Assembly (NCBI RefSeq): GCF_018143015.1
Contig: NC_054751.1
Location: forward strand, 30,457,783-30,521,782
Direction: 5' to 3'
DNA from: Lytechinus variegatus
Taxonomy: Eukaryota; Echinodermata; Echinoidea; Temnopleuroida; Toxopneustidae
DNA: 64,000 bases
Part shown: piece after piece, positions 15,801 to 64,000 of the stretch
Layout of the letters: every line of letters starts with the position of its first letter
Numbering within the stretch: position 1 is the first letter of the stretch
The notes under the pieces: generated by a model
Told to the model about the DNA's origin: nothing
The model's input: the letters and a program-made list of their open reading frames with translations, nothing else
The model's database searches: none
Made by a program: the position numbers and the translations under genes

Positions 15801-18800
15801 GTATGTAACATGCCCTATCTTGAAAATACATCCTTTTTACATGGTTTTTGGGTCGCGCATGGTATCCACTCGTTAATGTTGTGGGAACCCCCCCCCCGGC
15901 CATTAAAAAGGGGCATCAAGAGTAAAATGTACTTTTCAATGGGACACACTGGATTACCGTAGGGTACCAATGTTTTAGTGAAAAAGGGAACATATTTTGA
16001 CCCATGTTGTCTTTTTAGAAGGGCATCAAGGCCATTCTGGGGGCACCGGAGGCTATGGCCTTTGGTGTGTTAATAGGAGCTCTGTAACGGTATTCTATTT
16101 TCTTTCTTTTTTTAGCCTTGATGATTCTTTGACTTAATGTAATATTCCTATTTTTCAGGGTCTTTCTCTGAGTGGTGGCGAGCAAAAGGAAGGTCAGCGT
16201 AAGGTCATTGATGGTATGAAGGGAACCTTTCCATGTGTCAGCAAGAATTATCACATGTGCACTGATACCTATGGAGCCATTGCCACTGCTTGTAAAGCTG
16301 GTGAGTGAATAAAGTCATAGGCCAGAATTCAGGGTCCGTCCAATGTTACAAAGAGTTGCAATCAATCCGATTAATCACTGCTATGACATGCCAGCGATGC
16401 CAGGTAACATCTAGAATGTTAGTTGTCTGTTCAAAGTATTTCCTAATAGGGTTTGTACTCGTGCTTGCATTATTCTCTTGTGTTCTCTCTGTGTTCCTCT
16501 TTGTTTCCAAACGGACATTGTATTTACTCTCTATACACGTGAAGAAATATGGTTAAATTCTGGGCCCTGTTCTACAAAGAGATATAATTGATTCAACCAA
16601 TCGTAACTCTATGGAAATCCATCAGTGTCATAATTTTTCCTACAGGTAATTTGCAAAATGTCCATTGTAAACAAAGGAATACACACCAATTTATCAAGAA
16701 ATCAATGGCTTTATGGATATATATACAAGCAAAGTCAACGGATGAAATTCATGTTTGTTCAAAAAAATTCTAGATATGCATTCATATCTTCATATCTTGT
16801 TTTCTTCTGTCAGTATCATCATTTTTTTAATTTTTCATGAATTATTGTGCACACAGGAGGCATGGATCTAGTACAGATTTCTGGTGCTGGTTTTAACTAT
16901 AAGTTTATCAACCCTAATGGAGCAGTCCATACCTAGCCTACATGTAGCTAATCTTCCTAAAGGCTTATATGTCACATGCAAGTTCAGTATATAATCCTGT
17001 TTTCATCTTATTTGTATCATATCTTTGTTTTTTTTTTTTTCACTCTACATGCATTGTCCACACAGGAGGCATCGTGCTAATCTCTGGTACGGGTTCAAAC
17101 TGCCAGCTGATCAATCCTGATGGAACGGTCCATGGCTGCGGAGGATGGGGTCATATGCTTGGTGATGAAAGCTCAGGTAGGTAAAGATTAACCCCAATAT
17201 TTTTATTGGTTTCACACTGTCTTTCTTAACCCCATACTATTTGCGTAGCCTTGGTTAACGCCTTAACCCCAGACTATCGCGCAGCCTATGAATATTGATG
17301 ATTTTGCCACACAGAGCGTGATTAATGTGCAATTTTGACTTCTGTGATTGGCTATTACCGCTCCACAGAGTGTGATTAACATGCAATTTTGACTTTTGTG
17401 ATTGGCTATAAAACAGCTCCACAGAGCGTGATTAACATGCAATTTTGACTTCTGTGATTGGCTAACAGCTCCACAGAGCGTGATTAACATGCAATTTTGA
17501 CTTCTGTGATTGGCTAACCGCTAGTGAACTGCTAATGCTTAGCCCCACTTTTCCCTAGCCCAACTGCATCTCTTAGCACTGCAATTGTGGTGCTAGCACC
17601 GCAATTAGCCAGCTAACCTTGCTTTTTTTTCAGGGCTAGATTGTACCATACTATTTACCGTGACAGCCCACTTTGCTAAAACGTAGTGTGAAAAACGAAG
17701 TGGGCTTTGCTTAACCCCAGGAAATTGATGGGGCTAAGACCCCCCCCCCCCCCCTTAGCCCCACCAATTTTCTGGGGTTAAGAAAAATATGTGCAGTGTG
17801 AAAAGCAAATTAGTTTCCCAACTGTCCTCTTTTTGTTTCACTCTTACAAAAATTACTAGCAGGACTCTTCAGGAAATTTGCTACCCCATCTACAAATGTG
17901 AAACAAATCTTTCTGTCACTTCTCAATGAGCCTGCAACACTCCAATGGTCTATTCAGTCATGCCAAAGCTCAGCTGCAGTATTTCATGTCATTTCATGTT
18001 CAAAGTCAATGGAAAATTAAATGTAAAATATGTGATATAAATCATGGCTTTAAAAAAAATCTTTTGTGATACATGTCTGAAAAAAAGGCATCCAAACAAA
18101 GAAGATATGACAAGATCATTTTCCAGAGTTGCATGCACAAACTTGTGATATCCAATAAACAAAGTTTAAACTTTTATGGCTCATTTTATCCATTCAAGAA
18201 TTTTATCAATCTCAATAATCCGGGCCTGTCTCACAAAGCGTTGTTATTGATTTGATTGATCTATGGAAAGCCAACATTCTTGAATTTCATATGTTTATTT
18301 GCTTTCGTATTCAGCGTAGAAGATGACATATCATAGCATTGCTGGCTCTCAATAATAATATAGATAATAAAAATAATGATAATAATAATAATAATGATAT
18401 TGATAATAATGATAATAATAATGATAATAATAATTAATGATAATAATTAATGATAAAAGTAATTAATATATTGATAATAATAATAGTGATAATGATAATA
18501 GACAGTAATTGGAGAGCACATATCACACTATGAATTATATTTGTCAGTATGCGCTTCCAAAGGACTTGGGTATTGTAACCCCGGCTGTAATTTGGCAGCT
18601 GTAATTACTCAGAATACAGCACATACGCATTTCAGGGAATTATTTCCTGCCAGGTACCCATTCACTTGACCTGGGTTGAGTGCAGGAAACAAGGCCATGG
18701 CTGGGATTTGAACCCACCACCCTCTGTTTCAAAGTCCAAAGACTTATCCACAGGGCCACATTGCTCCACATACTCTCAATAGTTGAGATTTAATCAAATC

Positions 18801-30777: not shown

Positions 30778-31987
30778 TTTCAGGATGGTTTGCGCGCACC
30801 TCACGAGCCATTCAAAGATTGCATAGCAGACTAGTGCACCTGTATGCAGCCTAATTATATTTGCCAGCGCCATTCTAGAAGTTAGAACAGCTAGCGGCTC
30901 CGCGGGTACCGGGTAGTAAGCGCCGGCCCCCGCACCAGCATTGTTTTTTTATTTTCTCTCTCGCTTGCTATATTCTGATGTATAAATTATACAGACCTTT
31001 TAGTATAATACATAATGTCTGAAGTAGTAGGCTATATAGATTCTCTCATGTACCTTGACTGCTTGTAAACGGTATACCCTTTTAAAGAGGGGCCGCAGAA
31101 GCGGCCGGGGGAGGGGCCGCGGCTGAGGGCGGCTTCAGCCCCCTCCCTCACTACAAAAATGTAAAATTGACCATATGATCGTGTTTTTTTTTTGCATAGT
31201 GAGCCCCCCCCCCCACTTTGAAAATCGTTCTGCGCGGCCCTGCTAAACACATAGCTTTTGAAATCCATGGATTGCCCCCCCCCCCCCCCGGCATCAAACT
31301 CTTTGCATGCGTGCATGCAAGGCTAGTATAGCAAGCTCCAGCTCCACGTTGGTTTTCCCACTGAACTGGAAAGCCGTGCGGCAACGAAGAGCATCGGGCT
31401 CCACGCCAGTGGCCTTTAGCTAGGATTTTTTTCCTGGGGGAGGCTTGCTTTCTCGGGGGGCGGGGGCACCATTTTTCCGGTGTGTGTGTATGTGTCACAA
31501 GGGCGGATCCGACTTTTGCCAATAGGGACGGGGCCCAAAATTATCACCTTTAAATTTTCCCCAATCAGTCACTTCTTAGTTTTATTCTTATAGAACAACA
31601 TAAACATGAAATAATCTCATAAGCCTTATATTTTTTTTTCACTTTCAGGTATTTTGTCCTGAAAATTTAATATTCTAAGCAATGTCATGTGTGAGCCTGA
31701 ACAAGATAGATGGTTACTGCGAACGCCAAGCGCGAGCAGAAATTTTTATTCAAGCATTATCGAAAAGGGACCTGTTTACACGAAGACGGTATATATTTCA
31801 ATAATGCGAGCGCGAAGCACAAGCAATTTTTTTTGACATTCCAACCTAAAATTGGTCATTCTAAGCACTTTTTGTATTCATAAATGGGATATGTATGTAA
31901 CTAACCAATTGATGCGAGAGAGGAAGAAAATTAAGATTTTAGACCTAAAAGCGGGACACTCTTTTCATATTTTGTAAATCTTATAAA

Positions 31988-33330
31988 GTTAATTTAATCC
32001 TGGGCCGTCTTTTATTTATAATCTATATAAATGACATTCAGAACTCCTCTGAAATATTATCTTATGTCCTTTTTGCAGATGATTCAAATGTACTCTACTC
32101 TCATCCTAACCCCGATATTTTAATTAATGTATTGAACACTGAACTGGATAAATTGGTACAATGGATTAGGGCTAATAAATTGTCAATTAATGTTCAAAAA
32201 ACGAAATGCATGCTTTTTAGCAATTTTTTAGAACAATTGCCATTTAATATCAAATTAGACAATGTAGAAATTGAAGTTGTTACTACAACAAAATTTTTAG
32301 GCCTCATAATAGACAACAAATTATCTTGGAAATCGCATATTGACTCTATGTGTCGTACAATTTCACGCAATATTGGTGTTATCAACAAAGTTAAGTTTTT
32401 TCTTCCAACTTCCTCCCTAAAAATGCTTTATTCAACATTAATTTTACCATATCTAAATTATGGAGCAATTGTTTGGGGAAACACACACTCAACCTACCTT
32501 TAGATAGAATATTTACAAAAGAAGGCATTGCGTGTTATTTTCAACTTGTCCTGGAGATCTCACACAGATGAGTTGTTTTTAAACAATAACATTCTAAAAA
32601 TACAAACACTGTACCAATATAATTTAGGTCAACTCATGTATCAGTTAAACAATAATATGTTACCACCCATGTTTAATTCTTCATTTAACAAAAACAAAAC
32701 CCTTCACAAATATCCCACACGTCAATCCGATGAATTTCATTTACCTCTACCCCAGACCATCCTTGCAAAATCAATTTTTACTTTTGAAGGCCCTAGACTC
32801 TGGGGAACTATTAATAGTAACATCAAAGAATCTCCAAGCCTTAATATAAGTTCAAAAAAATTCTTCAAGATAACCATAGAATTTAACTCTTCATCACTCA
32901 AACTCTTGTATTTTTTTAATCAAACATGTTTATCATGTCACGTACACTTTTACATCTCTTTCGTTTCCCTGTTGATCGGCGAGGTCCGTCTGTGAGTGCT
33001 GGGGCTGGATTCTGGAGACCTTTAATCTCTCTTTTTCTTATTTCCTTTTCTAATTTTATTTCCCATTTTTCCTTTTAATTCAACTGGTTGTGCTCAAGTT
33101 ATTTTATTTTTATATGCTAAACAACTGCAAGAATATTTATTAGGAGGCTGCACCCTACAAGCTCCGCTTTTTAGCAGCCTCCTCCATTTCCAACCTGATT
33201 TGTAATAATCTTGAATATAATCTTCTGTACAGGGAATATTTGAAATATGTTTTGTTATTTATATATGTCAACATGTACAGAAGAAACTGTAATTGTTGAA
33301 AACGGAAATAAACGAATGAAATGAAATGAA
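31988..33330 (+). mobile_element. 5'-truncated LINE (non-LTR retrotransposon) fragment
   Basis: It opens inside the reverse transcriptase at LLFIIYINDI and shows the catalytic FADDSN near 32078. Then follow QWIRANKLSINVQKTKCM, KFLGLIIDNKLSWKSHI and LYSTLILPYLNYGAIVWG, the usual C-terminal order of CR1/Jockey-like LINEs. A stop codon at 32502 breaks the frame shortly before QKKALRVIFNLS. The downstream frame (to 32995) covers the C-terminal tail. The 3' end is a TGAAA repeat at about 33310-33330. Both flanks are hairpin-array sequence, so it inserted into an existing array unit. Confidence 0.85.
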
Positions 33331-37761: not shown

Positions 37762-40700
37762 CGACAATAAAGGAATAACACTTCATTCACAGTAGTTGTG
37801 ATAATTGAACCTTACTTTATTAGGTACTCATGTATTCAATGCGGCGCCGATAAGGGGCGAATTACAATCGTCACGAAAACATTATAAAAGCACTACACCA
37901 CAAGGTGGCGCTATAACACAACTTTAACTAGAACTCTAACAAACACTGGCGTGGTCACTTTTTATCTCTTCCTGTTAATTTGATGCAAATGTACGCATAC
38001 TAATCATTTGCGACATAACAAAACGCACCTCCATAACAAATGAAAAGGGTATCATCTTACATAAAATTTAAAGATATATATAGCCCTTACAAATAAAATA
38101 TCTACTAATTTGACAAATAAAAAGGGTATCATCTTACATAAATTTTCAAGATTTATATAGCCCTAACAAATAAAATAACTGCTAATTTGACTTCACGTAT
38201 ATCAATTCCATCAATAACATTAAAAATAAAATATTGATTATCAGGTAATACTGTCTGAACCTGCTTGCTATTCATGGTAAAACGCTTTCACTAAAATAAT
38301 GTTACTAACACAACATCATTATTAAATCAAATCCCATTACCAGCCAATTACATAAAATAACCAAAACTAAGTAAACATATGTACTCCCGATATACCTTTC
38401 TCACAAAACGATGACGTACATAAATTGTAGAAGATTGTGCTGCGCACAGTGCACCCTGAATAAGTCTAAACTACCTATCCATAGAACCAAGCGGCCACGA
38501 TAAAAGCCATGGGATGGATACATTGGCTGCAATATGACACAGGGCATTTTAACAAATCTGTCGTTCCAAACACAAATAAACTGTACACCATTATGTGACC
38601 TATAAACTTGCAGGCCTATAACAAGACATCTAAAATCTTAAACAAAACGAATTAATGTGTTCTTTAAAACAATAAAATACTGTCAATTACTGTTTTATCA
38701 TCAATCTAAATAAGCATATTCACAGTCATAACAAAACCAATAGGTGTGAAACCAAAGGCAAGCTATGTAGGGCAACCTTTCGACACCAGGTGAGAGCAAG
38801 CAAGGATCATCTGTGTAGAATAACTGGTGTACCCAGTACAACATAACAAAATATATCATGTTAAATGTAAAAGAACAAACAAAAATAAAAAACTGTTGTA
38901 AACAAAAAAATACACACGCCCAAACATGAATAATTCATGTCCCATGCCATCTAAGCAGAAAAACAACAAAAACTATGTGGTCATATCATCTGCATAAGCA
39001 TAGTAATAACATCTTATTCTTGCCAAACAAAGATATCACTAACCATAAACCAGATATATACATCTATAAACCATGGATCATATACTCTTTTTCAAAATAA
39101 TAAAAAAAATATTTCATAACCCTTAAAACCATTCATTGCCAAACACACAAAATGGGCATTGACTCATGCAAAACCTTTGACACATTATTAAAAAAAAAAT
39201 CAAGAGAGTAATGATACATCTGCACACCTCCACCTAACAGTCTGTCACACCAGAGGCCACATAGCTATGCAAACTTGCACAGATCACTGCTTGAAAACAA
39301 CGTCCCACACACAAATGGTAAAATAAAAGGCGTATTCTTTTATAAAAAGATGTAATGAAATAATCTTGATTACCACATAAAAAAATCAGACACCACGACA
39401 TAAATCCTGCAAAAATACTCGCGCACCAACAATATGATATAGGAACTGAAATACATATCAAACACAAAAATTAATAAATACATGACTTTAATGATTGCAT
39501 GTCGCACAAAGGGTGCATAAATACTGTATTTGACTCAAATATGTCAACTCCCCTTCATACAAAAATAAAATTTAGCATAAGCAGGCAGTACATATCCCGA
39601 AAAAAATACAACAAACAAATTCAATGACATACTGGAAATCAGACGATTCACATCAAAACCAAATAACCGCTGGACCATCCGGACCTGTGAAGAGGCAAAT
39701 AATAGAAACGTGCATGACAAATATGTCACATCAAAAAGGGGTATGCCTTGCACAAAAAATAGTATCATTATACACTTCAATATAAAATTGTACAGAGGGA
39801 AATCATAACCTGCATAAAATGTGAAAATGGAAAGAAAATATTAACATAAAAACATCATACATGCAATCAAAATTGTTCATCAGTGCTGCACCATGAATAG
39901 GCCACGAACAGCTAAGGTAAAACACCCAATAAATGTCAACATAGTGAATGTTCAGTTTCCAAGGTTCCGCCTGGGAAGATGCCATATAGTTCTTAGGTAT
40001 TTTAGACGAAATTCATGTCAGGAGGACGACCGGGACGGCGTCCTACGGCTAACCAAAACGTGGAGAGGTTTGGTCGTTCCTGCGACATAGGAGTGATGAG
40101 CAGTGCAGATGACATCTCAAGAACAAGGTGCAGATGAGCCAAATGAACTGTCATGTGAAGTGAAGCAAGGATGGCCATAAGAGCGAAAGACGCACGAGGC
40201 CCGTTGCTAGCATCGAAGGGGCGACCAAGTGAGTCTAGAACTTCCATGAAGAGGTCACGAGTAGGACTACTGTGATGGCAGTGACGGATGGTTATAGACA
40301 CACTACTAACAACAGAAGTTGGACTTGAAGTAGGGCCCAGCGAATTCTTGTCAATCGCCGAACTGAGTAGGCATCCTCGTAGGTTTTTGTCGACATCTGG
40401 GGGTCGACCTGGTGGGTCTATAACCTCTGTTGTGAGGTCATCACGAGTAGGGTCGCTCTGGTGGTAGTGAGAGACCAAGGAACCGGTGATGTTCAGGGAA
40501 ACACTGTCTACATAGTTAGCAAAGTCAGTTTTTGGGGTAGCTTCCAAGGAAGACTTGTCAACTTTCAAACACTGTAGGAGGTCCGGTCGATGAAAGAGAT
40601 CGCATGGAGTTTGAGCACCAATACAGATATCAATATCAGCAGGAACAAAGGAGGTAGGCTTCAAGTAATGGTGAGAAACTGAGACAAGATCTGACTTAAC

Positions 40701-42537
40701 TTGCTGGCACATGCTTGCATCCTTCTTGATACGGTCGTCTAAGCTAGGAGACGGGATGCCAATTGCACCTGTGAGTGTGGTGCTTAATGGCGAGTCGACG
40801 ACGTTACCTGAGGAGTCCGAAATAACGAAAGACGCGCACGACAATGTCTCGGTGTCATCGGGCATGTGCGGACTACAAACATGCGAATCCGGATTGTGAA
40901 TGGCAAACGAACGATCAGGACCATAAGTGTATGATGGTCCATCACCTATGGTGATGCGGCGCTTAGCAGGACGGATGGTAATATCGTGCAATTCGATGAA
41001 CGGGATTCCTGCATGAACTCGAATATGCGGCGCATCTACAACGTACGCGTCAAAACGGTAGTCTTTTCCATCCCTTGCGAAGGTTAGACTTGTTGTACCA
41101 GTAACTGAAAGACACGAGAAACGCTCAGCGTATCCCACAGATTGAAATAATTCTGTAGGCATAATAACACCACCAAGACTCTGCACCAAAGACACATCGA
41201 TGAGGTTCTGTGGTGAACCACTGACGAGATCGACTCGGACAAGTTGTTGGCCATGGAAGAGATCAACGCTTGGAGTACAGGAGATGCTGGCCACTGGAGA
41301 CTGTGGCGAATGTGTAACCTTGTCCTTGGATCGGGTCTCACCTAACTCCGGTGAGCCACTCTCTCCAATGCTGGAAGAATCTTCAATGACTACTTGCGGT
41401 CTGCCTGACTTTGGCAAGACCTCAACACGACCAAAAGAACTGATGTCTGCTAGACCTGTTCTAACAGGCAAAGGGTTTTCACCATATGAAATATTAGAAC
41501 TATCATAGCAATCATCACTCTCAGATGAATCAGAAACAAGAGACTCAAATCCATTCTGACAATCATAACTGAATCCCAAATGATCAGGGCAGACCAATCT
41601 AGAAGTGTACTTGTAGGCTTTATGACAATAATCAATGTTAGTTTCAGACTCTTGCGAGAATGGGGGCTCACTCATGTGATGGTGATTATAACTAGGACTA
41701 GGTTGACTAGCTGTATTATAGAACTGGTAATCATGAGTGAAAACACTATAGGGCTTGTCACAATTAGTAGATCTATCGTGCGAGTTGGAACTAATTCTAT
41801 ATCCGACAGAGGTGGCATTATCCTTAGTACTAGTATTATCTTCTTGCTCATACACTGTACAATGTAAAACCCTACTGGCTTTAGGAAAGGACTGATAAGG
41901 GTATTCACTGTCAGAATCATCATCATACTCAAAATATTCATCATGATCATCACATTCATAATAATCGTTCAAATCACACAAATCAAGATTGTCATGATCA
42001 CTCACAATCATATCATTTGCGTTATCTCTATTAATTTGGATGAATGTGGAATTATCACGATTATTGATTTGTTTATGTTGGTTGTGTGTAGTGCAAACGT
42101 AGCCTCTCTCTTGGGCACGATTCTGGCGGCGGCTCTCTCGGGCCTGGGGAAGGTACCTGTACATGTACCGGGGATAACTAGCCATCATAAAAGGCTATGT
42201 GTGGGAACTGTAAGCCGTGAGAAGTACATGATCAACTAGTTAACAACTACCTATCACGAAAAATGCTGCTTTTCGACCGAATGAATGCTAGGGTAGCAGT
42301 GGCCATCCTATTGTGTGGATGACAGGGATCGAACCTGATGCCACCACGACAATAAAAGAATAACGCTTCATTCACAGTAGTTGTGATAATTGAACCTTAC
42401 TTTATTAGGTACTCATGTCTTCAATGCGGCGCCGATAAGGGGCGAATTACAATCGTCACGAAAACATTATAAAAGCACTCCACCACAAGGTGGCGCTATA
42501 ACACAACTCTAACAAGAACTCTAACAAACACTGGCGT
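37762..42537 (-). mobile_element. Gypsy-like LTR element, non-autonomous or incomplete
   Basis: Direct repeats of about 190 bp bound it: 42347-42537 (5' LTR in the sense direction) and 37762-37952 (3' LTR). They share GTGATAATTGAACCTTACTT and GCGGCGCCGATAAGGGGCGA and differ at only about six positions, so the insertion is fairly young. Just inside the 5' LTR a TGGTGGCATCAGG word (42346 downwards) is placed like a primer-binding site. A purine-rich stretch precedes the 3' LTR. One long open frame has a retropepsin-like part. I see no reverse transcriptase or integrase. It therefore looks incomplete, and I cannot count its breaks. No clear flanking duplication. Confidence 0.82.
40002..42188 (-). 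CDS. Open frame of the LTR element, with a retropepsin-like block
   Basis: A 728-residue open frame in the sense direction of the LTR element. The first third is Asp/Asn/Ser/Tyr-rich and looks disordered. Around residues 310-420 it resembles the protease region of Gypsy-type polyproteins, most clearly in the AGIPF and IRPAKRRITIGDG phrases. The rest is not recognised. Treated here as part of a fossil element, not a host gene. Confidence 0.6.
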   Translation of the reverse strand: MMASYPRYMYRYLPQARESRRQNRAQERGYVCTTHNQHKQINNRDNSTFIQINRDNANDMIVSDHDNLDLCDLNDYYECDDHDEYFEYDDDSDSEYPYQSFPKASRVLHCTVYEQEDNTSTKDNATSVGYRISSNSHDRSTNCDKPYSVFTHDYQFYNTASQPSPSYNHHHMSEPPFSQESETNIDYCHKAYKYTSRLVCPDHLGFSYDCQNGFESLVSDSSESDDCYDSSNISYGENPLPVRTGLADISSFGRVEVLPKSGRPQVVIEDSSSIGESGSPELGETRSKDKVTHSPQSPVASISCTPSVDLFHGQQLVRVDLVSGSPQNLIDVSLVQSLGGVIMPTELFQSVGYAERFSCLSVTGTTSLTFARDGKDYRFDAYVVDAPHIRVHAGIPFIELHDITIRPAKRRITIGDGPSYTYGPDRSFAIHNPDSHVCSPHMPDDTETLSCASFVISDSSGNVVDSPLSTTLTGAIGIPSPSLDDRIKKDASMCQQVKSDLVSVSHHYLKPTSFVPADIDICIGAQTPCDLFHRPDLLQCLKVDKSSLEATPKTDFANYVDSVSLNITGSLVSHYHQSDPTRDDLTTEVIDPPGRPPDVDKNLRGCLLSSAIDKNSLGPTSSPTSVVSSVSITIRHCHHSSPTRDLFMEVLDSLGRPFDASNGPRASFALMAILASLHMTVHLAHLHLVLEMSSALLITPMSQERPNLSTFWLAVGRRPGRPPDMNFV

Positions 42538-50606: not shown

Positions 50607-53600
50607 ATGTCATCGCCTGATGATACTGCTAACCAGAGTGGAGGGAGGGGTTACAGAGGACGAGGTCGGGGCGGGTACAGGGGACAAGGGGGCCGTGGTG
50701 GTTGGAGAGGCGGAGGGCGTGGCGGGAGAGGACAAGATAATCAGCAGGATGGAAGCGAAAGTGGTGATGGGAGTGATAACAGTGGACAGCGAAGAGGACG
50801 TGGCAATAGAGGACGAGGGGATAGAGGTCGAGGCGATAGAGGAGGCGATAGCGGTCGAGGCTATAGAGGTCGAGGCGGTAGAGGAGGCGATAGAGGTCGA
50901 GGCGAAAGAGGAGGTCACCGAGGGAATCGAGGACAACAGGGACAGGAAGGTGACAGTGGGGATAAAGGAGGTAATGATCGAGGGCGAGGAGGTCACCGAG
51001 GTCGAGGAAAAGAGAGAGGTGGACATCAAGGACCACAGGGCAAAGCTATGGAATACAGTGCCGGTGGTGATTCTATAGCATCTGATTCAAGTAAGTCATT
51101 ACTATTAATTGTTGAAATAGCAGATTTGGTAATCAGTAGAGGGCTGTAAAGGGTCATTCCATCTGGATTCACCCAGTGGTTGCACCCGACCGTCTCAGAA
51201 TTCGTTGTAAATTGGTATACATAAAATTCAACATGGCCCAAGCACAAAACAGAAAAATTATTCAAATCGGTCCGTCGGTTCTCGCGCTACAGCCCGCCCT
51301 TTTCTCCTTGTTTTGACAAAAATGGGCGTGACCTTCAACTTTCAATGGCCATTGCGTCATAACGTGTTGACCAATTTTCATGAAACTGGTACCATTTGAT
51401 AGGAAATTCAGAGAGGAATCCAAAACATGCATCAAATAATGTATTGGAATGATTTATAAGGTCGTGACCCTTGACCTATTCTTTGACCTTGAATTTGACC
51501 CCCGGACAAATAATTTTTTGACTTGATTTTCGTGTATGTTAATTATTTGTATGATATTGACAAAATATGTTAAAACCAATGATGATATTTTATTTCTTCA
51601 CCTTTAAAAACTCTTCCAAAGATACCATGAAATTTCACTCTAGTCCCACATACTGATATTCATGTTAGTAAAGTGTTCAAAAGTTACATGATTTCTTCTA
51701 ATCTTAAGTCACAGTATGCAAACACATTAAAAGAAATTAAGCTCATCAGTTCACAAATGAAACATTAAACATTTATGCTCATGAGTAGGTATCTGTTTAG
51801 GCATTTTGATGTTCAGCAATATATATCATATATGTATATATTCTTCTTAGTAAAGTGTTTACCCGGTACTTTTATCATCAACTTGTTGAGTATATGCTTA
51901 TTTAAGGATCCCTAATATACATATATGATATATATTGCAGAGATGCCAAGTTCAAAAAAATGTAATGCGTGAGATTTTCATGACTCGACGTCTCTGAGCG
52001 CGCGCGGCCAGTACTTACACTCATACGTTGCGAAAAGGTGCGCGCGCAACGCGCGCGCGCATGAGATATGGGCATAGAGATCCATCTCTATGGATATGGG
52101 CTTCAAAACCATGCGATGCACGCACGCTATTCATCGTATCACGTACTAGCTGTGCGCTGACTGCACTTTTGATTCGTCTCGTGTGCCGGGCTAGACGCGA
52201 AGGCGGTCAGCCAGTCGTATAATCTGGCGAATAATGCTACTTTTTCTCTTTTTTTCTGTTGGGTACCGATATGCGTGAGAAAAATGGGTGCCATGCGTGA
52301 GATCGTGAGACGGACCCTGAATGCGTGAGTCTCACGCACAATGCGTGAGACTTGGTAGCTCTGATATTGCTGAACATAAAAATGCCTTAACAGATACTTA
52401 TTCATGAGCATAAATGTTTAATGTTTCATTTGTGAACTGATGAGCTTAATTTCTTATCATGTGTTTGCATACTGTGACTTAAAGATTGGAAGAAATCATG
52501 TAACTGGTGAACACTTTACTAACATGAATATCAGTATGTGGGACTAGAGTGAAATTTCATGGTATCTTTGGAAGAGTTTTTAAAGGTGAAGAAATAAAAT
52601 ATCATCATTGGTTTTAACATATTTTGTCAATTTCATACAAATAATTAACATACACGAAAATCAAGTCAAAAAATTATTTGTCCGGGGGTCAAATTCAAGG
52701 TCAAAGAATAGGTCAAGGGTCACGACCTTATAAATCGCTCCAATACATTATTTGATGCATGTTTTGGATTCCTCTCTGAATTTCCTATTAAATAGTACCA
52801 CTTTCGTGAAAATTGGTCAACACGTTATGACGCAATGGCCATTGAAAGTTGAAGGTCACGCCCATTTTTGTCAAAACAAGGAGAAAAGGGCGGGCTGTAG
52901 CGCGAGAACTGACGGACCGATTTGACTAATTTTTTTTGTTTTGTGCTTGGGCCATGGTGAATTTTATGTATACCAATTTACAACGAATTCCGAGAGGGTC
53001 GGGTGCAAAATTGCACTTTCATTGGGTGAATTGGCATGGAATGACCCTAAACAAACATTATCATCCAAGCAGTTCACATTTTACCTTCTATTTATGTTTG
53101 ACATATTTACATTTACCTTTTCTAGCTACACAGTTGTTTTAAAAAGAAACCAACTGCAGTGTTCTGGATTTAGAAAGTAAAAAAAAATGGGGAAATGAGG
53201 TGTCCTGATGTATTTGTATATAATTATATGCATATTTTTCAATCCAATTGTGATTGAGAAATAAATCGCTAAGAGTAAGACTCAAAATAATTTCCCTTGT
53301 CAAGGCACATAATCAACTCACTATAGATCTCCTTTCTCCACCAAATTATCCAAGGGTAATTCCACGGAACTTGATAGCTTGATGGAATATGCCTAGATCA
53401 TTTTTTTTTTCATTTGAGTAAATTAAACGTATCATATCAGTACAGTGGTTCAAAAGTGGTGGCATATGTTCTTATCTCTATTTTCCAACTTAAATATGAA
53501 TAAGTCTGATGAGAACTATTCCCCTTTAAGGCATTTATCTTTCATGCAGATAATAAAAGCCTAATCATTGGGCGGCATATAGGAATGGCATTGTCTGTGG

Positions 53601-55301
53601 TATAATAAATCAAGAAAATTTTGGAAACCGAAATGATGTAAAGTTTGATACCTGATTGGTGGTAATAATCTATTTCACATTTACTTGGTGTAATGAACTC
53701 GATATGAAAAGGATTCATACATTTCTTATTTGTGATAATCATTCAAAACTAATGAGGAGGCTCTCATTTCCTCCCTTTCGCATTTGTTGCTTCAAGGACA
53801 AGGCACAGAATACATTCCAGCCCTGATTAATCTTTCTGCAGGCTGCATCCCTGGACAAACACAAGGGGGTGGACCTCCCATGAGCTACCCATTCCCTCCA
53901 CGGTCTCCTTTTGGAAATCCACCCCCAAATCAGTACGGTCCTCGCAGACCTCCTGGTCCACCTGGTGGCTTTGTACCCCTAGGACCGGTGCCTCCTCCCC
54001 AAATGAGATATCAAATGCCACCTCCACCACAAGGCTTCCAGGGTGGAAGACCACCTGGGCTTCCTCAGCAAGGCCACTTCATGAACCAGCGGCAACCGCC
54101 TCCGTCACTGATGCAGAATGCAAATGCCCAACAAAGAAAGCAAGTTCCGATGGGCGTGGTGCCCCCGGTGCAGCAACAACAGCAGCAGCACCAACCCCAA
54201 CAGCAACATCAGCAGCATCAACAGCAAGGTAAGTGTAGGTGCATTGATTACCATGCTATTGAACAGAAGGAAGGAGCTTTATTGTCCACTTTTTCAGGAA
54301 AAAAAAACTTAATAATATTAGAACAATGTATCATTGTGCAATCTGATCATATTCTTGTTGCATTTTGATATTCATTTTTACATTTGTATTAAAATACATG
54401 AAGAGTGAAAAGGGCATGAGGTTTAACCAAAGCAGAGAAGGCTTTGAGGGAAAAGGCCATTTTAATATGATTTGTAAAATCTTTCAATTAGATATAATAC
54501 AAAAATGTAGACTGAAGAAAGAGCATTAGATGTATGATTGATTTACAAAAGTGGCACTTGCAACTTGTAAATTTCTTGAACCTTGAAAGTTGAAAAATTA
54601 TGCAAACTCTGTCCTGGAGGGGTTGAGCTGTATGTTGCTCCAGAGGAGCATTTCATCAAGACAAGTTGACTTATCTGATAACTTTCCTTGATTCTGATTG
54701 GCTGAGAGACACTGTTACTATACGGATGAAGCATGACTTGTCGGATAAAACGTCCGACAATTCCTTTCATAAAAAGCTCCCCAGGTGTTGTGATGACCCT
54801 GCAGTAGTCTCCTTGGTGCAGAGTGTGCTGGGTGCAACATGCAGGCGTTTTAACAGGGGAGGCAATTTTCTGGAATGACTATGGAATGCTCTCCAGGCTA
54901 GGCAATGGAAGTTACTGCTGTGCTTCGGAAAGTGAATGAAACAAAATGAATAAAGGAAACTGTTTCCTGTAAATGTCTTTGTGCAACACCCAATGCTCCT
55001 GGAGATGATCTCACAATCTTAACGTCATGAAATTCATCATGTGTTTTATGTGAATAGGTCAGAGGAAGGACTACAGGAAAGACCGTGGCCAACGTTCTCG
55101 TGGAAGACGGCGAGGAGGACCAAGGCGTCGACGTGACAATTCCGATCAGGGATCTGTTGTTGATGAATGTGAGAGCCTGGTAGGGAGTGATGATGATGAC
55201 TGCGGATCGATCATGGGGGATGACTTCTTTGATGAGGATCAAGCAATAGAAATGCTTGATGATCCGAAGATCACTCCAGATGGAGCAAATTCATTTGCAC
55301 A
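50607..55301 (+). CDS. ZNFX1: ZNFX1 exons 1-3: disordered RGG and P/Q-rich N-terminal region
   Basis: Exon 1 (residues 1-161) is almost wholly Gly/Arg with RGG and RGRG repeats, ending in a Ser-rich patch. Exon 2 (to about residue 290) is Pro/Gly-rich with PPGPPG, PPPPQ and a Gln/His run coded by CAG/CAA/CAT repeats. Exon 3 begins with an Arg-rich patch (RGRRRGGPRRRR) and then an Asp/Glu-rich stretch. Such sequence commonly binds RNA and drives condensates; that function is inferred by analogy with granule proteins. Codons in exon 1 are strongly biased to GGN and CGN/AGA by composition, so the other frames are also open over several hundred bases; only the frame from 50607 joins the rest of the gene. 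Confidence 0.86.
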
Positions 55302-58300
55302 GTATGAACCAGATTTACGTTTCATCTGCTATTTTGCTAGAGTGGTTTTTAATCCTGATTTTATAGAGTTGTGCTTGTTTGTCAAAAATTTGACAGATTT
55401 TGGAAAGACTAAGCATGTCTTTAGAAAGAATAAAACTTAAAATAACCATCTCCTTGGCCAGTCAAGTAGATTTCAAATACAAAAATTTGATGCACAACTG
55501 AATAGGTATGATTCGAAAATCGGCATATTAAAGACAGTGCACTCCATTATTTGTGTTATGGCATTAGATTTGAATTGATGTAAAGGTCTTCAATAAAGAA
55601 ATAGAACAACTGTTCACTGCTCATTAAAAACCAGAGTCTATGACTTCTAATAACTTAAATGAGAAAACAGTTTTATGAAGACTAAAAAAGAATTCTTTAC
55701 GTTTCTGGATTTGCTGATTTGTGCATGAAATATATCTCAAAAATATCTCAGATTATATAAGGTCAGCTTATGATGCAATAATTAGTGAACTTCTATTGTC
55801 ACTTCAGTTGGTAAACTAATTATCGATTACAGCAAATACAGTATTCAAGAAGTTTATGTTTCTCATTTTTTATTTTTCTCTTCACATTTTTCCTGATGTA
55901 GATACCCTGACTTGCAACTGTCGCTTATTAAAGAATGGATGATCAAGAAACCATCGGACAGCATGGCAAAGCTCTTGGAAAATAAGGGAAGTCTACAAAA
56001 ACTCCTCCAGGAACGCGAAATATCAAATGAGATGTTGAATTGTTTGATATCTTTGCTTACAAAGGTATTCCAAGAGCAAGGGGATGGTTTACAGGTGATT
56101 GCAAAAGCAATCATCAGTCAGTCAAAGTTTCTTAAGTTGCATATTCCACAATACATCATGCGCATAAGGATCAATGTCGAGGGTGAGACTACAGAGAAAC
56201 TTCTCCAGCAGACTGTAGATTTGACAACAATTCTGAAACAGATTGTGCACTGTATGACAAGAAAGCAGGCTTCTGAGATCCTTCCACCTCTTGTCCTCAT
56301 CGGAGATGTGCACAGAGATATGGAGTCGAGGAACGTACCAGTCATTGAGTCGGCTAAAGAAGCCCTGCAAGAATGTTTCAAGAAACAGAAGGACCTGGCT
56401 GAATCTCCTGCAAATGGTGTCTCCAAGAATGCAGTAAAGAAGGATAGGTCTAAAGATGCACTACTGACAGAGTTTCCTTCCTCAGGAGAAATAAAAGACG
56501 GATCACCTCCTGATCTGTCTGCCCCAGCTGAGACTGGCAAGTACAAGAACACAGAAGCAATCATTGCAACACAGTTCCAGCTGTTGAGGGAACTAATTGC
56601 ACAGCCAATCCGTGAAAATGTGTCTAAGTATTACCTTATTCGTGAAGGAAAGAAGAAGCTGACAGAGGAACACTTGCATGAAATACCAGTCTATCAGTAT
56701 GTGAACGTGAAAGGCATCAGCTCAAAGGCTGACCTTGGTCTGGTCTACCGAATGCAGTTTGAGGCAAAATATTTCCAACGTGATCACTGGGACTCAAATA
56801 TTCACTTAGCTGAAGGATCTGTTGTATGCATGTCTGTTGATCATTTCAACACTCTCATCTATGGCATTGTTCATGAGCGGCAGTCGAGTGTACTTCAGAA
56901 AGGATTTGTAGATCTTTACATTCCACGGGCAGATGATGTTGCTCTGCTTCTGACCAGCTACAATTTCCTCATGATTGACTGTAAGCAAACCATAGAAGGT
57001 GTTCTAGATGTCCTGTCAACCCTGCGACACATTACGGATGTCACCATGCCTATGCAGCAACATTTTATCGACATGAGTCACCCTGCTAAGCAGGCCATCT
57101 TTTGTGAAGGAGACCGCAATTGTTCATATGATCTTGATTCTCTGGTGTCAGATGATGCCCTAAACAGATCAGCGAAAGCACATGCAATGAATGTACCTCT
57201 CACAGATTTTGACCACTGGCCCAGCAAAGATTCTGTGCTCCTGGATGGTGATCAGTATGATGCGGTGAAATCCGCCCTCACACAGGAACTTTCAGTTATC
57301 ACAGGTGGACCAGCCACTGGCAAAACACATGTAGGTCAAGCAATTGTCAAAGTTCTCCTCCAAAATCGTCACAAATGGGGTGTCAATTTAGCCGACGGAA
57401 CTCTTGGCCGTACCGACGTTGATAGTGGGCCTATACTTGTACTTGCTCCAGATAAAGTCACTCTTGATCACTTCTTGAAAGGAGTAGAAAGCAAGGGTAC
57501 TGTCAGCATAGACCAACAGAATGAAGCAAAGAAGAGAGCATCAACAATGAGAAATAGTGGTCCTGGTGGAGCAGAGCTAGAGGAATTCCAGAAGAGAATT
57601 TCAAACATTCAGGCCAACATCATCTCTTCACGGAAGAGCATAATTAATGTTGGGTCTTTGAAACAAGTCATGAGTGCATCACATGCTGAGAGTATCTTGC
57701 AGAAAGGTGGTATGGCAGTATGGCTCATGCAGGACTCTAGTCAGAAGGCTCTGAATCGTGCCAGTGTTGGGCTGGGTCCTTGTAACATAGGAGATGAATG
57801 GGTGGAAGATCCATTCCACATAGATTACGACCCAAGCAAGAAGGCCTCAGAACCTGCAGAACATGAGCTGTCCGAAAAGGACCTACGATTTCGTATTCGT
57901 CTCACTGAGCGCATGAAGAAGCAGCAGGAGGAAGCTGTTCAAGACCCATGGGCTTTGCAGATTGATCACCGATGGCGACTCTACCGATTTTGGTTGCGGG
58001 AGTTCTGGAATACAGCTAATCAACGCATACGTCTGATATCTAAGGAGTTGGAAAACGTAGTTCAACAGCACCGGGTGAAATCTGAGAAATCAGATTTTGT
58101 GATATACCAGAATGCTACCATACTTGGAGTAACATCTTCTTGTGCAATAGCACACCATCGTATTCTGAGGTATGTCCAGCCCAGGATCATAATGATTCTC
58201 CAAGCTGCAGATATTATGGAGGCTGTTGTCATAGCATCATTGTCACAACACTGCCGACAGTTGATCATGATTGGGGAAAACAAATCCATCTTGGAGCAGA

Positions 58301-61300
58301 ATTCTGCCATTGCAGCTCTTGCAAGAACAGGTGGTGTGATGTTGTCCTCCTTCTGTCGGTTCATTGAGGGGAAGTATGCCACTTCAAAATTAACAAGGCA
58401 ACATCGCATGGCACCCTCTATCTCCAGGTTCATCAAACTGGACAACAAAGAGCTTGAAGACCATCCACAGGTGGCAAGACTTAATGAAGTGCAAGGAATT
58501 CCCCGCCGGGTTTACCTCATGAATCATGGTTTGCCATGTTTCAATGCAAGCACACATGAGTTGGAGTTTCTATCAAAGCTCTGTGTCTACCTACTTAAGC
58601 AAGGACATCTGGAAAGTGAGATTACCATTCTTTCCAATTCTGTTGGGCTACGTGATCGTTTCAGGAAGATTAAGGAATTGTCTAAGGTCAGTTCTGAACT
58701 GGTAGATGATTTCCTCGGAGATAATGATATCATACTCTTGGCCACTTTCCGGATGGATGAACCCGGACGTCTCAAAACAAAGGATCGGTTGATGAAGGCT
58801 CTTTCAGTCGCAAAGAAAGGTTTCTATGCAGTTGGCAATTTTGATTTACTTCGTACACAGTGTGATAGAGTACTTCAAGATGCTAAACGTCTGGAAGTGT
58901 TGGGCAAGCAACTACCTTTGACTTGCCGCTATCATGAGAACCAACATGATATTGCTATGAAAGCAGCAGATATCCAGAAGCGGATCGATACTGGTGGATG
59001 CAGTCGTGAGTGTATGGCACGTCTACCCTGTGGCCATAGCTGTAAGCAACCATGCCATAAGCACAACAATAAGAATTTAGGTGATTATAGGTGTGAGCAG
59101 CAATGTCAAAAGTCTATATGCCATGCCGGACATAAATGCACCAAGAAGTGCTTTGAGAAATGTGACAAAAAATGCAACAAAACATCAGAGAGGACCTTAC
59201 AGTGTGGTCATAAACAGGTGACGGAATGTTCTCTAGCCATCGGTAAAATCAAGTGTCGAAGTCCTTGTGAGAAGATCCTGCTATGTGGACATCTTTGTCG
59301 TAACGCTTGTGGGGAACCATGTGCTACACTCTGTCTGGAAATTGTGGAGAGAGAATGGCCATGCAACCATACAGTGAAGGTACGATGTTCGGACACGGAG
59401 GAAACATGCCCCTCTCCATGTCTAGAAGAACTCAAGTGTGGACATCGCTGTCGTGGAACATGCGGGAGCTGCATGAAAGGCCGCCTGCACATCTGCTGTG
59501 AGGAGCCATGTGGCCGGATCTTGGTCTGCGGGCATCAGTGCAAGAGCAGATGCTCCACCGCCTGTCCACCTTGCACAGAGAAGTGCCAGAATAAGTGCAA
59601 GCACAGCCGCTGCACCGATCCCTGCGGGGAACCCTGCATCCCATGTCAGGAGCATTGTGAATGGCAGTGTCCTCATCAGGTTTGCCGACGTGCTTGCTGT
59701 CAACCGTGTGATCGAGAGCCCTGTAAACAACCATGCAAGAAAGAACTGCCATGTGGTCATGGGTGCATTGGTCTCTGTGGGGAACCTTGTCCTAAGAAGT
59801 GCAGATTGTGCCACCATGATGAAGTCACAGAACTGTTCTTTGGAAATGAAGACGAACCAGATGCTAGGTAGGGCAATATTAATGACTCCTTCAGTAACTG
59901 AAATTGAGAAATAAGAAGCTTACAAGGCCACCAAGGCTTTTATATTGATTGGTCTCAATTTGTCTCTCATACATCTTTGACATTTTTGTGCTATAATACA
60001 GAAATAATCCATGTAGAAAAGCGGCCTTACGTCAATATTTATGGTCTCTCAAGAAGTGAATATGTACTAGAAATGAATATTGAAAATTTCTGATCTGCAG
60101 TAGGCCTAATGAACTTTTAATATGATGATATGCTTGCCATGTCTTAATAATAGCTGTACCTTACTAAAAAAAGAAGTTTTAAAGACAAAATTCTGAGGTC
60201 ACAGCAGTTTCTCTTAGTAGAATAATGGAAACTCATTCCAGCCGTTTGAATATTTGTGCTGATGACTTTTGTAAAGCAGGATTTTTCAGACTCGAATTGA
60301 TAGCTTGATCAAACAACTGATATATTCCTGATGTGATGAATTCTTGTTTGGAACTTTTACTGCACTAAATGAAAAAAAAACATCTTCAGTATTCTATTTA
60401 TTAGACTTGGTACACTTCAGAATATTTTAATAGAAGCAATGAACAACATATGATTTGGATGATCTGTTCTGAATTATGAATGGTCTTTTCGGCTGAATTG
60501 GTATCGCTTGATAGATTTTGACATTTTTCTCCTACTCGTTTCATAATTCTTGTCTGTGTAGATTTGTCGAGCTTGAAGACTGTGGTCATGTGATCGAGGT
60601 ACAGGGATTAGACAGGTGGATGATGTCCTCTGGTGATGAAACAGAATCAGAGACAGTTAAAGTAAGTATTTTTATAAACTGGGTTAGATCTTTTAGCATT
60701 TGCATTAACTTTTTTAAGGGTGCTCGGGTAATTGCATATTTAAACACTTAGTTACCCCCCCAACTTTAAATTCAAAATAACACGATTCCCTGTCTCCCCC
60801 TCGAAACTTGCCATATTTTGTCACATCGTACAATGATGCATAGATAAGGGCATGGGGGGGAGAGAACTTTGATTTGCTATACAATACTTAAAGTGTTTCC
60901 CTAGGAACCATTTTACCAAGACTTAATGGTATTGTCTGGGAACTGTGGCTTTCTTTAATTGATTTGACACTTTTCAGGAAAACATCAACAGTCTTTGTAA
61001 ACTGAAATGACAAACCAGAAATTTTACCCAAGTACAAATGTGAGGTTGCAAGTGAATTAAGATTTACCTTTAAGTTATGATTGTGTTTGAGGTTCATATC
61101 AATTATACATTTTTGTTTCTCAGCTCAAAGGATGTCCGAGATGCAACACACCCATCCGTAAAAACCTCCGCTATGGAAACGTGATCAAACGCACCCTTGA
61201 AGACATTGAGGCAGTCAAGAAGAAAATGATGGGTAGCAACGCGGAGATCAAGGAGAAGAAACGTCTTCTAAAGAAGAAGATTGGCCTGCTGGAGAAAATT

Positions 61301-62083
61301 GAAGTCAATGGTCTTTCAGAAGAAGTCATCAGAAATTTCCGGGAGAACATCAATGACTGCCATCATCTGCAGACCTTGGTTTCCCGACTGAACCGATGCA
61401 ACTTCATCCAGGAAGTCATCAATATGCAGTCTCAACTCGATGGTCTTCGACAGCTCCTAGATGGATCATCGACTGAAACGAAGATGCACAAGTCACATCA
61501 AGATATCATTAAATACCGGTGTGAGCCATTGGCAGAACGGCTTGGCAAGATGAAGGGGGGACTGTCCTCTGGAGACCTTGGGCGTTTTGCTGAGCAACAA
61601 ATGAACGATACCTTGACAGAAGTGGTCCGTCTGATCATGGAGTGTGATGCCGCAGGCCTCCTTGTCAATAACTTAAAATGGTGGGACAAGAACCCCTCGT
61701 ACCAAGGTATCCTTATCAAGTTCGACAGCCTCCTTTCCAACCAGAAACCACTCACCCCCGACCAGGAGAATGAGATCAAAGGAATTTTAACACTTATCAA
61801 CAATGTTCTTGGTCATTCGCAGAATACGGCCTTGGCCATTAGTGACAGGGAGCGATTGCAGGTGGTCCATGCAGTTGGTTTAAGCCAAGGCCATTGGTTC
61901 AAGTGTAAAGAAGGTCATGTCTATGCCATTGGTGAATGTGGTGGTGCCATGGAACATGCACGCTGTCCTGAATGCGGTTCCGTCATCGGTGGACAGCGCC
62001 ATCGCCTGACCGACACCAATGAACTTGCTGGAGAGATGGATCGTGCACAGCATGCTGCTTGGTCAAAGGGAGGGCAACAGTGA
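50607..62083 (+). CDS. ZNFX1: NFX1-type zinc finger helicase-like protein, ZNFX1 family (6 coding exons)
   Basis: Coding exons: 50607-51090, 53842-54228, 55058-55301, 55902-59867, 60562-60661, 61124-62083. Phases agree across all five introns, giving 6141 nt and 2046 residues plus TGA (human 1918). An acceptor at 50557-50559 implies a 5' UTR exon starting at 50560. An in-frame TAA at 50586 lies upstream of the ATG, fixing the start. The order from residue 1 is: RGG-rich, P/Q-rich, Armadillo-like, SF1 helicase, NFX1-type fingers, coiled coil, RZ finger. From family knowledge, vertebrate ZNFX1 is an interferon-induced dsRNA sensor and worm ZNFX-1 acts in germ granules for small-RNA inheritance. 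The helicase motifs here are badly eroded (see exon 4), so this is probably a divergent paralogue. The 55302 donor (GCACA then GTATGA) is the least certain junction. The family call is secure; orthology to human ZNFX1 is not. Confidence 0.93.
51150..53048. repeat. Long inverted repeat in ZNFX1 intron 1
   Basis: Arms 51150-51823 and 52374-53048 are inverted copies, about 675 bp each, matching at most positions. They start AGGGTCATTCCAT and run through TCGGTCCGTC, TGGGCGTGACCTTCAACTTT and AGAGAGGAATCCAAAACATG to TTCAGCAATAT. The loop (about 550 bp) holds another transposon. The left arm begins 59 bp after the exon 1 donor. Possibly a foldback transposon; no sure target duplication. Confidence 0.93.
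51938..52363. mobile_element. CAGAG-ended MITE in the loop of the inverted repeat
   Basis: Ends CAGAGATGCCAAG and the complement of CAGAGCTACCAAG. Flanked by ATATTG on both sides (51932-51937 and 52364-52369), a 6-bp duplication as in 27641-27843. It contains GCGTGAGA/TCTCACGC words and the CpG-rich GCGCGCGCAACGCGCGCGCG. Non-coding. Confidence 0.78.
53049..53841. other. Rest of ZNFX1 intron 1
   Basis: Plain AT-rich intron ending in the acceptor TTTCTGCAG. No gene or repeat recognised. Confidence 0.45.
54229..55057. other. ZNFX1 intron 2
   Basis: Donor GTAAGT, acceptor TGAATAG. Contains a possible short MITE at about 54640-54790 with GACAAGTTGACTTATC and GACTTGTCGGATAAAA. Nothing coding. Confidence 0.5.
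55902..59867 (+). CDS. ZNFX1: ZNFX1 exon 4: Armadillo-like region, degenerate SF1 helicase, NFX1 fingers
   Basis: This 3966-bp exon codes residues 373-1694 of the model. The first part aligns by eye with the human ZNFX1 Armadillo-like region (KPSDSMAKLL, SKFLKLHIPQY). The helicase begins at LDGDQYDAVKSAL. Walker A is GGPATGKT at residues 840-847, with Lys846 kept. Motif Ia, TNHALDQ in human, reads DKVTLDH. Motif II, EEAA in human, reads LQAA at 1138-1141, losing both acids. Motif III, GDHQQL, reads GENKSI at 1163-1168. QHRM at 1205-1208 is intact. Motif V, YQGEE, reads FLGDN. Motif VI, ALSRAKKG, reads ALSVAKKG with Val1341 for Arg. From about residue 1403 to the exon end lies a Cys/His-rich array with repeated CGHxC units (about six or seven NFX1-type fingers), ending CGEPCPKKCRLC as in human. 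The exon is fully open, so selection on the protein is likely. Confidence 0.93.
60562..62083 (+). CDS. ZNFX1: ZNFX1 exons 5-6: coiled coil and C-terminal RZ-type finger
   Basis: Exon 5 (60562-60661) continues the split Arg codon of exon 4 into FVELEDCGHVIEVQGLDRWM, closely matching the human order. Exon 6 (61124-62083) opens with GCPRCNTPIRKNLRYG and a Lys/Glu-rich coiled coil (near residues 1750-1790). It ends with the RZ finger at about residues 1982-2016: GHWFKC, then GHVYAIGECGGAM, then CPECG. It closes with EMDRAQHAAWSKG as in vertebrate ZNFX1. The RZ finger is shared with the ubiquitin ligase RNF213, where it is needed for non-canonical ligase activity (family knowledge). All the expected Cys and His are present here, in contrast to the eroded helicase. 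Confidence 0.93.
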
Positions 62084-63654
62084 GGCCTTCAAGTAAACAA
62101 ATTAGGACCTATCATTCCTGATACACTCTTGCTTTCAATTTGTAGATACATATCCATTTTTTCTGTAATCTACATGTATGTTTATGATTCACAAAACATT
62201 TGGTCTTTTTTCATTAATGTTTATATGGAGAGCACAAGCAAATGATTACCATTGGTGAATATAATGGGACTAGGAATCATTTCCGAGGCAATTATAATAC
62301 AGCTATAATTCCAAAATGATGCATTGGGTGATTGTGTCTCTCATCCACTGAATACAGTGCATTATTTGCTTTATATTCCACGTTGGAAACTATCAAGCTC
62401 TCGAAAGGAAAGAGGGATCATATATCCAGCAAAATTTCAAGGCAGAATTTGTTTCAATACATCGAGGAAACAAATAAGTACCCTAGCCACAGTAACAAAA
62501 TCCTTGATTGCTTTAGTGTCTAGTAGTAGCTTAGCTGCAATTAAGATTACGATACATCATACCAGGCATGCAAAACTTTATGATTATTATTATGGAGATT
62601 GACTGCAACAGGCTACATAAAATACTTAGCACACTATTTGGTATGCTGTAAAGCCAAACTTTTGAATATTGGTACATGTATTGTAGCGTTTACATGGTTT
62701 TGATTTTTTTTTTCAATTTTTTCACTCCTCTAAATGTACATGCTATCAAAGTGGAAAATTTCTGAAGTTCTTCCTTGCCCTAAGGCTGGGGAATCCCCTG
62801 AAAGACACCTGCTGCTAATGAAGTAGTTTTCATTCAGTGGCGACGGTTCTACACTCTCCATATATGTTTTTTTTTATATATAACATGAATCAAAGTAAAA
62901 TATTCAGTGGAGATATATTTCATATCATAAGAGATGAAATAACTGGTTTAAATTGTGCAGTTGAATTTTATGAATAGATATATTGCAATATATATGTAAA
63001 ATATTTGATTTACTTTGATATGAGTATATAAAAGAGTGTTTATTTTATCCGAGAGAAAAGTTAATCTAACTTACATTTGAATATTAGTTAGTTTATCATT
63101 GAAGAATACCTGAAATCAAATTCTTATTGTCATGATTATTGTACATAGTATTCAAAAGAAAAAAAATTGCATGTAGTTAACAAAAAGCCATTTATGGTCT
63201 ATAACAGAGTCTTGTTTCATCAACTTGTTGAGTTAAAATTATTGTTATATTGACACTATTTGGTGTGAAATTCAAACTCTGATTTACTGTTTACAGTGAG
63301 TGGGTGCATGTTCTCCTACACCAAATAATTTTCTTTGTTGGTGTTGTTATAACACCTTTTTTCAGTGTTAGTTCAGTTAGTAAAATTGCTATACTTGATC
63401 GGTTGATGTTAAATGTGTCTTGGGGGATACTCTGCATTCGTTATTATGACAAGTTTTTGTGACAGAGCAGTTGAGTTCCCATGGTTGTATTTTGCTTCAA
63501 TGTTGATTATGGAATTTGTGTTTCATTTCACCTAGCCTTATCTCTGATTATATACAGCTGAGGTTTAGAGGTTAGTTCAAAGGCAACCTCAATCGAGGTT
63601 AGCAGTTTGATTCCCTACTGGGGCATGCTTGGTTGAATGAGGCATCTTGTCAAT
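62084..63654 (+). other. ZNFX1 3' flank and presumed 3' UTR
   Basis: AT-rich, no open gene. I cannot pick a polyadenylation site with confidence. A tRNA-like scrap (GGTTAGCAGTTTGATTCCC) lies near 63597. Confidence 0.4.
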
Positions 63655-64000
63655 CAAGTATTTCATAGTAAGGCCTATCATTCACTCTAATCGTTACACC
63701 GGTGTGTTGACTCAGTAGAGTGTCACAACCGGGAGGTCAGGAGTTCAAGGGATAGAGCTTTGTCGACCTGGCGCTGCTAAGTGCCTGTCGGGCCCACAAC
63801 TAATTGGGCAAAAAAGAATTTTCTGAGTATTTTGATTTCACTTCGAACAATAAAATATGGATTTTCATTTTTCCATGCATAAGGAGTATTTCATAGTAAG
63901 GCCTATCATTCACTCTCATTGTTGCACTGGTGTGTTGACTCAGTTAGTAGAGCGTCCGTCTCACAACCGGGAGGTCGGGAGTTCAAGCCCCGGCCACGTC
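63655..64000 (+). mobile_element. Two tandem tRNA-derived SINE copies, second cut by window end
   Basis: Both begin AGTATTTCATAGTAAGGCCT, followed by CATTCACTCT and GGTGTGTTGACTCAGT. The second copy keeps a good tRNA shape: TGACTCAGTTAGTAGAGCG (A-box region), anticodon-like loop CTCACAA (CAC, valine-like) and GGGAGTTCAAGCCCC (B box). The first copy is shortened in the anticodon region and continues into a body ending AACAATAAAATATGG. A tRNA origin is clear; a working tRNA gene is unlikely. Confidence 0.72.

Follow-up and report, generated by a model that had tools for sequence, protein, structure and literature searches.

The analysed stretch of Lytechinus variegatus DNA (contig NC_054751.1, positions 30,457,783 to 30,521,782; hereafter the window, 64 kb) carries on its plus strand a gene of the ZNFX1 family, whose predicted product combines an RZ-type zinc finger with a superfamily 1 (SF1) helicase core that has lost residues required for hydrolysis of adenosine triphosphate (ATP). 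All coordinates are positions in the window, and residue numbers refer to our own predicted model of six exons, built from splice signals and reading frame. The joined exons comprise 6141 bases encoding 2046 amino acids, and the sole stop codon is the terminal one. Inspection of splice signals and frame revealed GT-AG borders and matching phases at all exon junctions. The exons are as follows.

50607-51090, plus strand: exon 1, with the start codon and a region rich in RGG (splice sites and phase)
53842-54228, plus strand: exon 2, Pro/Gln-rich region (splice sites and phase)
55058-55301, plus strand: exon 3, Arg-rich and then acidic region (splice sites and phase)
55902-59867, plus strand: exon 4, 3966 bp in a single open frame; contains an N-terminal part that can be aligned with human ZNFX1, as well as the ZNFX1 domain, the SF1 core and the NFX1-type fingers
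60562-60661, plus strand: exon 5 (splice sites and phase)
61124-62083, plus strand: exon 6, C-terminal region, RZ finger and stop (splice sites and phase, Pfam)

The absence of a stop from the 3966-bp exon, already noted in the initial annotation of this DNA, was thus borne out. Residues 1-372 contain 33 RG and 11 RGG sequences. The guanine-cytosine (GC) content of exon 4 is 0.539, 0.387 and 0.442 at the first, second and third codon position, respectively, and differs from that of the five introns, which ranges from 0.300 to 0.373. Intron 1 harbors a long inverted repeat (51180-53008) with three arm pairs, the longest of 460 nt, that are 95-97% complementary; it resembles a fold-back or terminal-inverted-repeat element. 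No second ZNFX1 copy was found within the window by tblastn with the full 2046-residue protein (unfiltered, E up to 10), whose hits were the exons of the gene itself and, beyond these, six short matches at E-values of 1.2 to 8.6.

The closest relative of known structure is human ZNFX1 (PDB 9q9z, a chain of 1451 residues; E 1e-116), followed at a distance by Aquarius (E 6.3e-05). In the Pfam scan, the ZNFX1 domain, AAA_11, AAA_19 and the RZ finger scored above their cut-offs, and AAA_12 below. Three domains or regions outside the helicase motifs were located.

56674-56985, plus strand: ZNFX1 domain PF25396, 64.4 bits (a shorter piece gave 67; cut-off 27)
58984-59867, plus strand: predicted region of NFX1-type zinc fingers; residues 1380-1693 contain 58 Cys and 19 His
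61886-62023, plus strand: RZ-type finger PF20173 (Pfam), with C1999 and H2020 matching the Cys/His dyad of RNF213 at a spacing of 21

The PF25396 domain, the best match to 9q9z and the RZ finger support the assignment of the gene to the ZNFX1 family, in agreement with the ZNFX1-type protein named initially. Shared with the human protein are the domain order, the ZNFX1 domain, a RecA core with the segment WxLxxxxRWxLYRxWL and, as far as the alignment reaches, the putative first NFX1-type fingers. The fingers align to human ZNFX1 over approximately 92 residues, up to the end of the solved human chain, and no NFX1 finger model was listed by Pfam for the sea urchin protein at E up to 0.1. The SF1 helicases Aquarius and Cwf11 are the next-best PDB matches. 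Aquarius differs in having EEAA and the motif VI arginine, both replaced here, and it is not known to have a ZNFX1 domain or NFX1 or RZ fingers.

The Pfam scores of the individual domains differ in how far they fall behind those of the human protein. For AAA_12, the second RecA domain, 24.6 bits were obtained against 144.7 for the human fragment, and for AAA_11 39.4 bits against 104.7; the human piece used consisted of two stretches joined without the intervening linker. The ZNFX1 domain reached 67 bits against 131. Judged by these scores, the protein is divergent throughout and most strongly in the second RecA domain; the RZ finger, scored against that of RNF213, is exempt.

The helicase motifs were compared with those of human ZNFX1 (9q9z), two Aquarius chains, presumably the nematode and the human protein, and 9l5r, which is listed as a pre-mRNA-splicing factor and which we take to be yeast Cwf11. 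Query-anchored PDB alignments were used, and the motifs were labeled with the customary SF1 names and roles.

57253-57255, plus strand: Gln823 of the Q motif (adenine Gln), kept
57304-57327, plus strand: motif I (Walker A) GGPATGKT, residues 840-847 with Lys846 and Thr847, kept
57448-57471, plus strand: motif Ia PDKVTLDH against YTNHALDQ in human ZNFX1, changed (human comparison only, as the motif lies outside the Aquarius alignments)
58198-58209, plus strand: motif II LQAA (L1138, Q1139) for EEAA, both acids lost
58273-58290, plus strand: motif III GENKSI for GDHQQL, changed
58399-58410, plus strand: motif IIIa QHRM (Q1205, R1207), kept
58633-58650, plus strand: motif IV SNSVGL for TTYTGQ, changed
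58702-58728, plus strand: motif V VDDFLGDND for VDKYQGEEND, Gln and Glu lost, glycine kept, one residue shorter than in human
58798-58821, plus strand: motif VI ALSVAKKG for ALSRAKKG, arginine replaced by V1341 (58807-58809)

The human motifs EEAA, GDHQQL, TTYTGQ, VDKYQGEE and ALSRAKKG are therefore all missing from the sea urchin protein. The initial annotation had listed a Walker A with Lys846, altered motifs Ia, II, III, V and VI, and Val1341 in place of the arginine of SRAKKG; the alignment to human ZNFX1 confirms each of these and adds motif IV. A displacement of the conserved residues was considered and rejected, since the flanks are ungapped at motif II (RIIMILQAADI/RIVIVEEAAEV) and motif VI (ALSVAKKG/ALSRAKKG), and no conserved acid or arginine at a shifted position was apparent in the alignments at either motif. 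D1142 aligns with the Glu that follows EEAA in human ZNFX1. In SF1 helicases, the first acid of motif II helps to hold the metal, and motifs Ia, III and IV are involved in contacting nucleic acid or in coupling. The comparison supports the loss of the hydrolysis residues from the predicted helicase core.

The loss extends to other conserved positions. At 89 positions human ZNFX1 and both Aquarius proteins are identical, and 52 of them are kept in the sea urchin protein; with Cwf11 included, 41 of 63 are kept. Of 194 positions at which both Aquarius chains agree, 89 are kept in human ZNFX1 and 62 in its sea urchin counterpart, with 37 positions matched by human alone and 10 by the sea urchin protein alone (one-sided sign test, 5e-5). 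When Cwf11 was added, the corresponding numbers were 63 and 45 of 118 positions, with 22 against 4 discordant (2.7e-4); the comparison of all four proteins left out the Cwf11 block for query residues 274-360 and hence motif II. Since the alignments were anchored on the sea urchin protein, they should favor matches in it. An AlphaFold2 model of 797 residues, calculated from the single sequence, had a mean predicted local distance difference test score of 31.8 and was set aside.

The RZ finger scored 76.2 bits (81 for a shorter piece) at a cut-off of 27, compared with 77 for that of RNF213. RNF213 served as the yardstick because the match to the solved human ZNFX1 chain, which is shorter than the protein, ends in the first NFX1 fingers. 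The spacing of 21 residues between C1999 and H2020 is the same as that between C4462 and H4483 of RNF213. With this dyad and the score of 81 bits, the RZ finger can be regarded as complete, as had been proposed from the letters. The two proteins are built on different cores, an AAA+ core in RNF213 and SF1 RecA domains here.

A pseudogene was set aside on the basis of the reading frame, which is maintained over all 2046 codons of the predicted model. In 200 simulated runs of unconstrained decay, on average 47.9 stops accumulated (minimum 29), and in the core alone 11.8 (minimum 3), compared with none in the real gene or its core. The simulation started from the gene's own coding sequence, allowed substitutions only with a transition weight of 2 and ended when 37 of 89 chosen codons had changed; it is a rough argument and not an estimate of the ratio of nonsynonymous to synonymous substitution rates. 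As every run produced at least 29 stops, neutral decay is unlikely. An assembly error, which the initial annotation had named as a way in which its reading could fail, was set aside as well. For each of twelve key replacements, we counted the smallest number of base changes that leads from a codon for the expected amino acid to the one present: three for two of them (E1138 to L, Q1167 to S), two for another three and a single one for the other seven. With five of the twelve requiring two or three changes, the replacements are poorly explained by scattered errors of sequencing.

On balance, we consider the gene product to be probably a non-hydrolysing scaffold or ligase subunit of the ZNFX1 family, in which the core has been kept as a platform and not as an ATP-driven motor. 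The SF1 core would neither hydrolyse ATP nor translocate, and contacts with RNA or partners would be made by the RGG tail, the NFX1 fingers and what is left of the core surface. The RZ finger would still transfer ubiquitin, so that the protein could serve as a scaffold or as a subunit of a ligase, perhaps in assemblies built by an active copy of ZNFX1. It is doubtful that RNA is bound in the helicase channel, given the changes in several motifs that make contact there; RNA would more likely be contacted by the RGG tail and the fingers. The pseudo-helicase proposed initially, which was thought to bind ATP and RNA without turnover, is therefore retained in part. Its family, the lost hydrolysis residues, the preserved frame and the intact RZ finger are supported. 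Binding of ATP is conjectural, as the first acid of motif II is gone in addition to the catalytic one, and so is binding of RNA through the helicase channel, as motifs Ia, III and IV are changed.

Glutamate 1007 of human ZNFX1 is the second Glu of EEAA (offset of 87 to 9q9z, counted from K625) and is aligned with Gln1139. The sea urchin residue is thus the natural equivalent of the deliberate human change E1007Q, and the adjacent Glu is replaced as well, by Leu1138. Human ZNFX1 carrying K625A or E1007Q was reported neither to bind nor to restrain NLRP3 (PMC11574294). The reading as a ligase subunit draws support from RNF213, whose ligase depends on ATP binding and not on hydrolysis and stays active when the Glu of Walker B is changed to Gln (PMC12075652).

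Several points weigh against a functional protein without a motor. Besides the loss of NLRP3 control in the human helicase mutants just described, a helicase-null nematode ZNFX-1 fails, according to a review, to co-precipitate its target mRNAs (PMC11959080), and from both defects the loss of these residues is expected to impair a normal ZNFX1. The protein is divergent overall: it shares 151 of 443 aligned core positions (34%) with human ZNFX1, and 99 of the 354 that lie outside the 89 conserved ones, so that the deficit at conserved positions may in part derive from a generally faster evolution. Likewise, the ZNFX1 domain itself reaches only about half the human score, and general divergence consequently accounts for some of the lower scores of the helicase domains. 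The missing stops demonstrate a preserved frame, from which selection on the helicase domain as such does not follow. The comparison drew on a single ZNFX1 of known structure in window-anchored alignments, and the case is built on the sequence of one gene. No relatives were found in viral contigs or genome contigs, but these were viral and prokaryotic collections, in which an animal relative is unlikely. The searches comprised 19 (viral) and 39 (genome) pattern stretches for the protein query, 36 (viral) and 19 (genome) for the alignment query and one (viral) for the exon 6 query. A degenerate DNA pattern of the RZ finger matched two viral contigs; both matches were dismissed as chance, as in-frame stops follow within a few residues.

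Among the alternatives, a ligase locked in the ATP-bound state fares best, although we regard it as rather unlikely. Walker A would bind ATP, the exchange of Glu for Gln would stop turnover, and the bound state would keep the RZ ligase permanently switched on. The retention of K846, T847, Q823 and R1207 fits this possibility, as does RNF213, in which the RZ finger supplies the Cys/His dyad and the ligase is activated by ATP binding and not by hydrolysis; its Walker B mutants with Glu changed to Gln keep ligase activity, with activation unaffected or sustained (PMC12075652). However, RNF213 is an AAA+ ATPase and not an SF1 helicase, the first acid of motif II is Leu in the sea urchin protein, the arginine of motif VI is gone, and E1007Q alone already causes a loss of function in NLRP3 control by human ZNFX1. 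Less likely still is a decoy or dominant-negative protein, which would join ZNFX1 assemblies or draw a viral antagonist and thereby blunt or protect the active copy. Assembly of ZNFX1 into polymers is stated in the title of a preprint, and ZNFX1 is reported to have expanded to 11 copies in an earthworm (PMC7253469) and to be represented by three genes in Aplysia (PMC9334734), so that an additional copy would be nothing unusual for an invertebrate. A pure decoy, though, would not need an intact RZ dyad. A recently relaxed or dying duplicate is improbable: the motif loss is broad, but the 2046 codons are free of stops and frameshifts, the splice sites are canonical, the RZ finger is intact, and five of the twelve key replacements involve more than one base change. 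A divergent yet active ATPase using other residues has hardly any probability. In its favor, Walker A, the Q motif and QHR are kept, but the stretches in which the two acids and the arginine are replaced align without gaps, and no residue close by is an obvious substitute; D1142 is aligned with the Glu after EEAA.

Outside the gene, the window contains 131 stop-to-stop open reading frames of at least 70 residues. After removal of 17 low-complexity frames, 13 of the remaining 114, 10 of them picked by eye, were scanned with Pfam. The further features observed are listed below. ARAGORN called no transfer RNA (tRNA) gene in the window.

6960-9382, minus strand: at least two exons of a gene for mitochondrial ribosomal protein S26 (Pfam MRP-S26, 39.5 and 34 bits; cut-off 27)
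16948-17181 and 24019-24339, plus strand: possible N-acetylglucosamine kinase-like exons, by eye; the first with a sub-threshold match to BcrAD_BadFG (16.4 bits; cut-off 31.5), the second with no Pfam match
31949-32500, plus strand: retroelement reverse transcriptase fragment (RVT_1, 34 bits; cut-off 29.6)
40005-42194, minus strand: open frame of 730 codons with no Pfam match, which by eye could be retroelement gag/protease-like
63640-64000, plus strand: two similar stretches, by eye resembling a tRNA-derived short repeat

A helicase fold with lost or dispensable motifs has also been reported for Utp25 and for PriA of Deinococcus radiodurans, neither of which is known to carry a ubiquitin-ligase finger. 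The latter binds DNA without hydrolysing ATP, and Utp25 differs in resembling DEAD-box helicases. Among the matches listed in a search of open-access titles and abstract beginnings, a set that does not include the metazoan survey of Blasi et al. (2022), no ZNFX1 copy with lost helicase motifs is described; a prior description is possible.

Human ZNFX1 has recently been described in a review as both an SF1 helicase and an RNA-activated ubiquitin ligase, which depends on ATP to recognize long single-stranded RNA and which builds higher-order assemblies (PMC13270118). Against this background, we tentatively suggest that in an animal lineage one ZNFX1 copy has turned into an RZ ligase without a motor. 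As a natural counterpart of E1007Q, it might assemble together with active ZNFX1 on RNA and, while turning over no ATP, contribute ligase activity or sites of assembly. A natural ZNFX1 with the ligase finger but without the catalytic residues of the helicase would provide a test of whether the ligase needs the motor, only a bound nucleotide, or neither.

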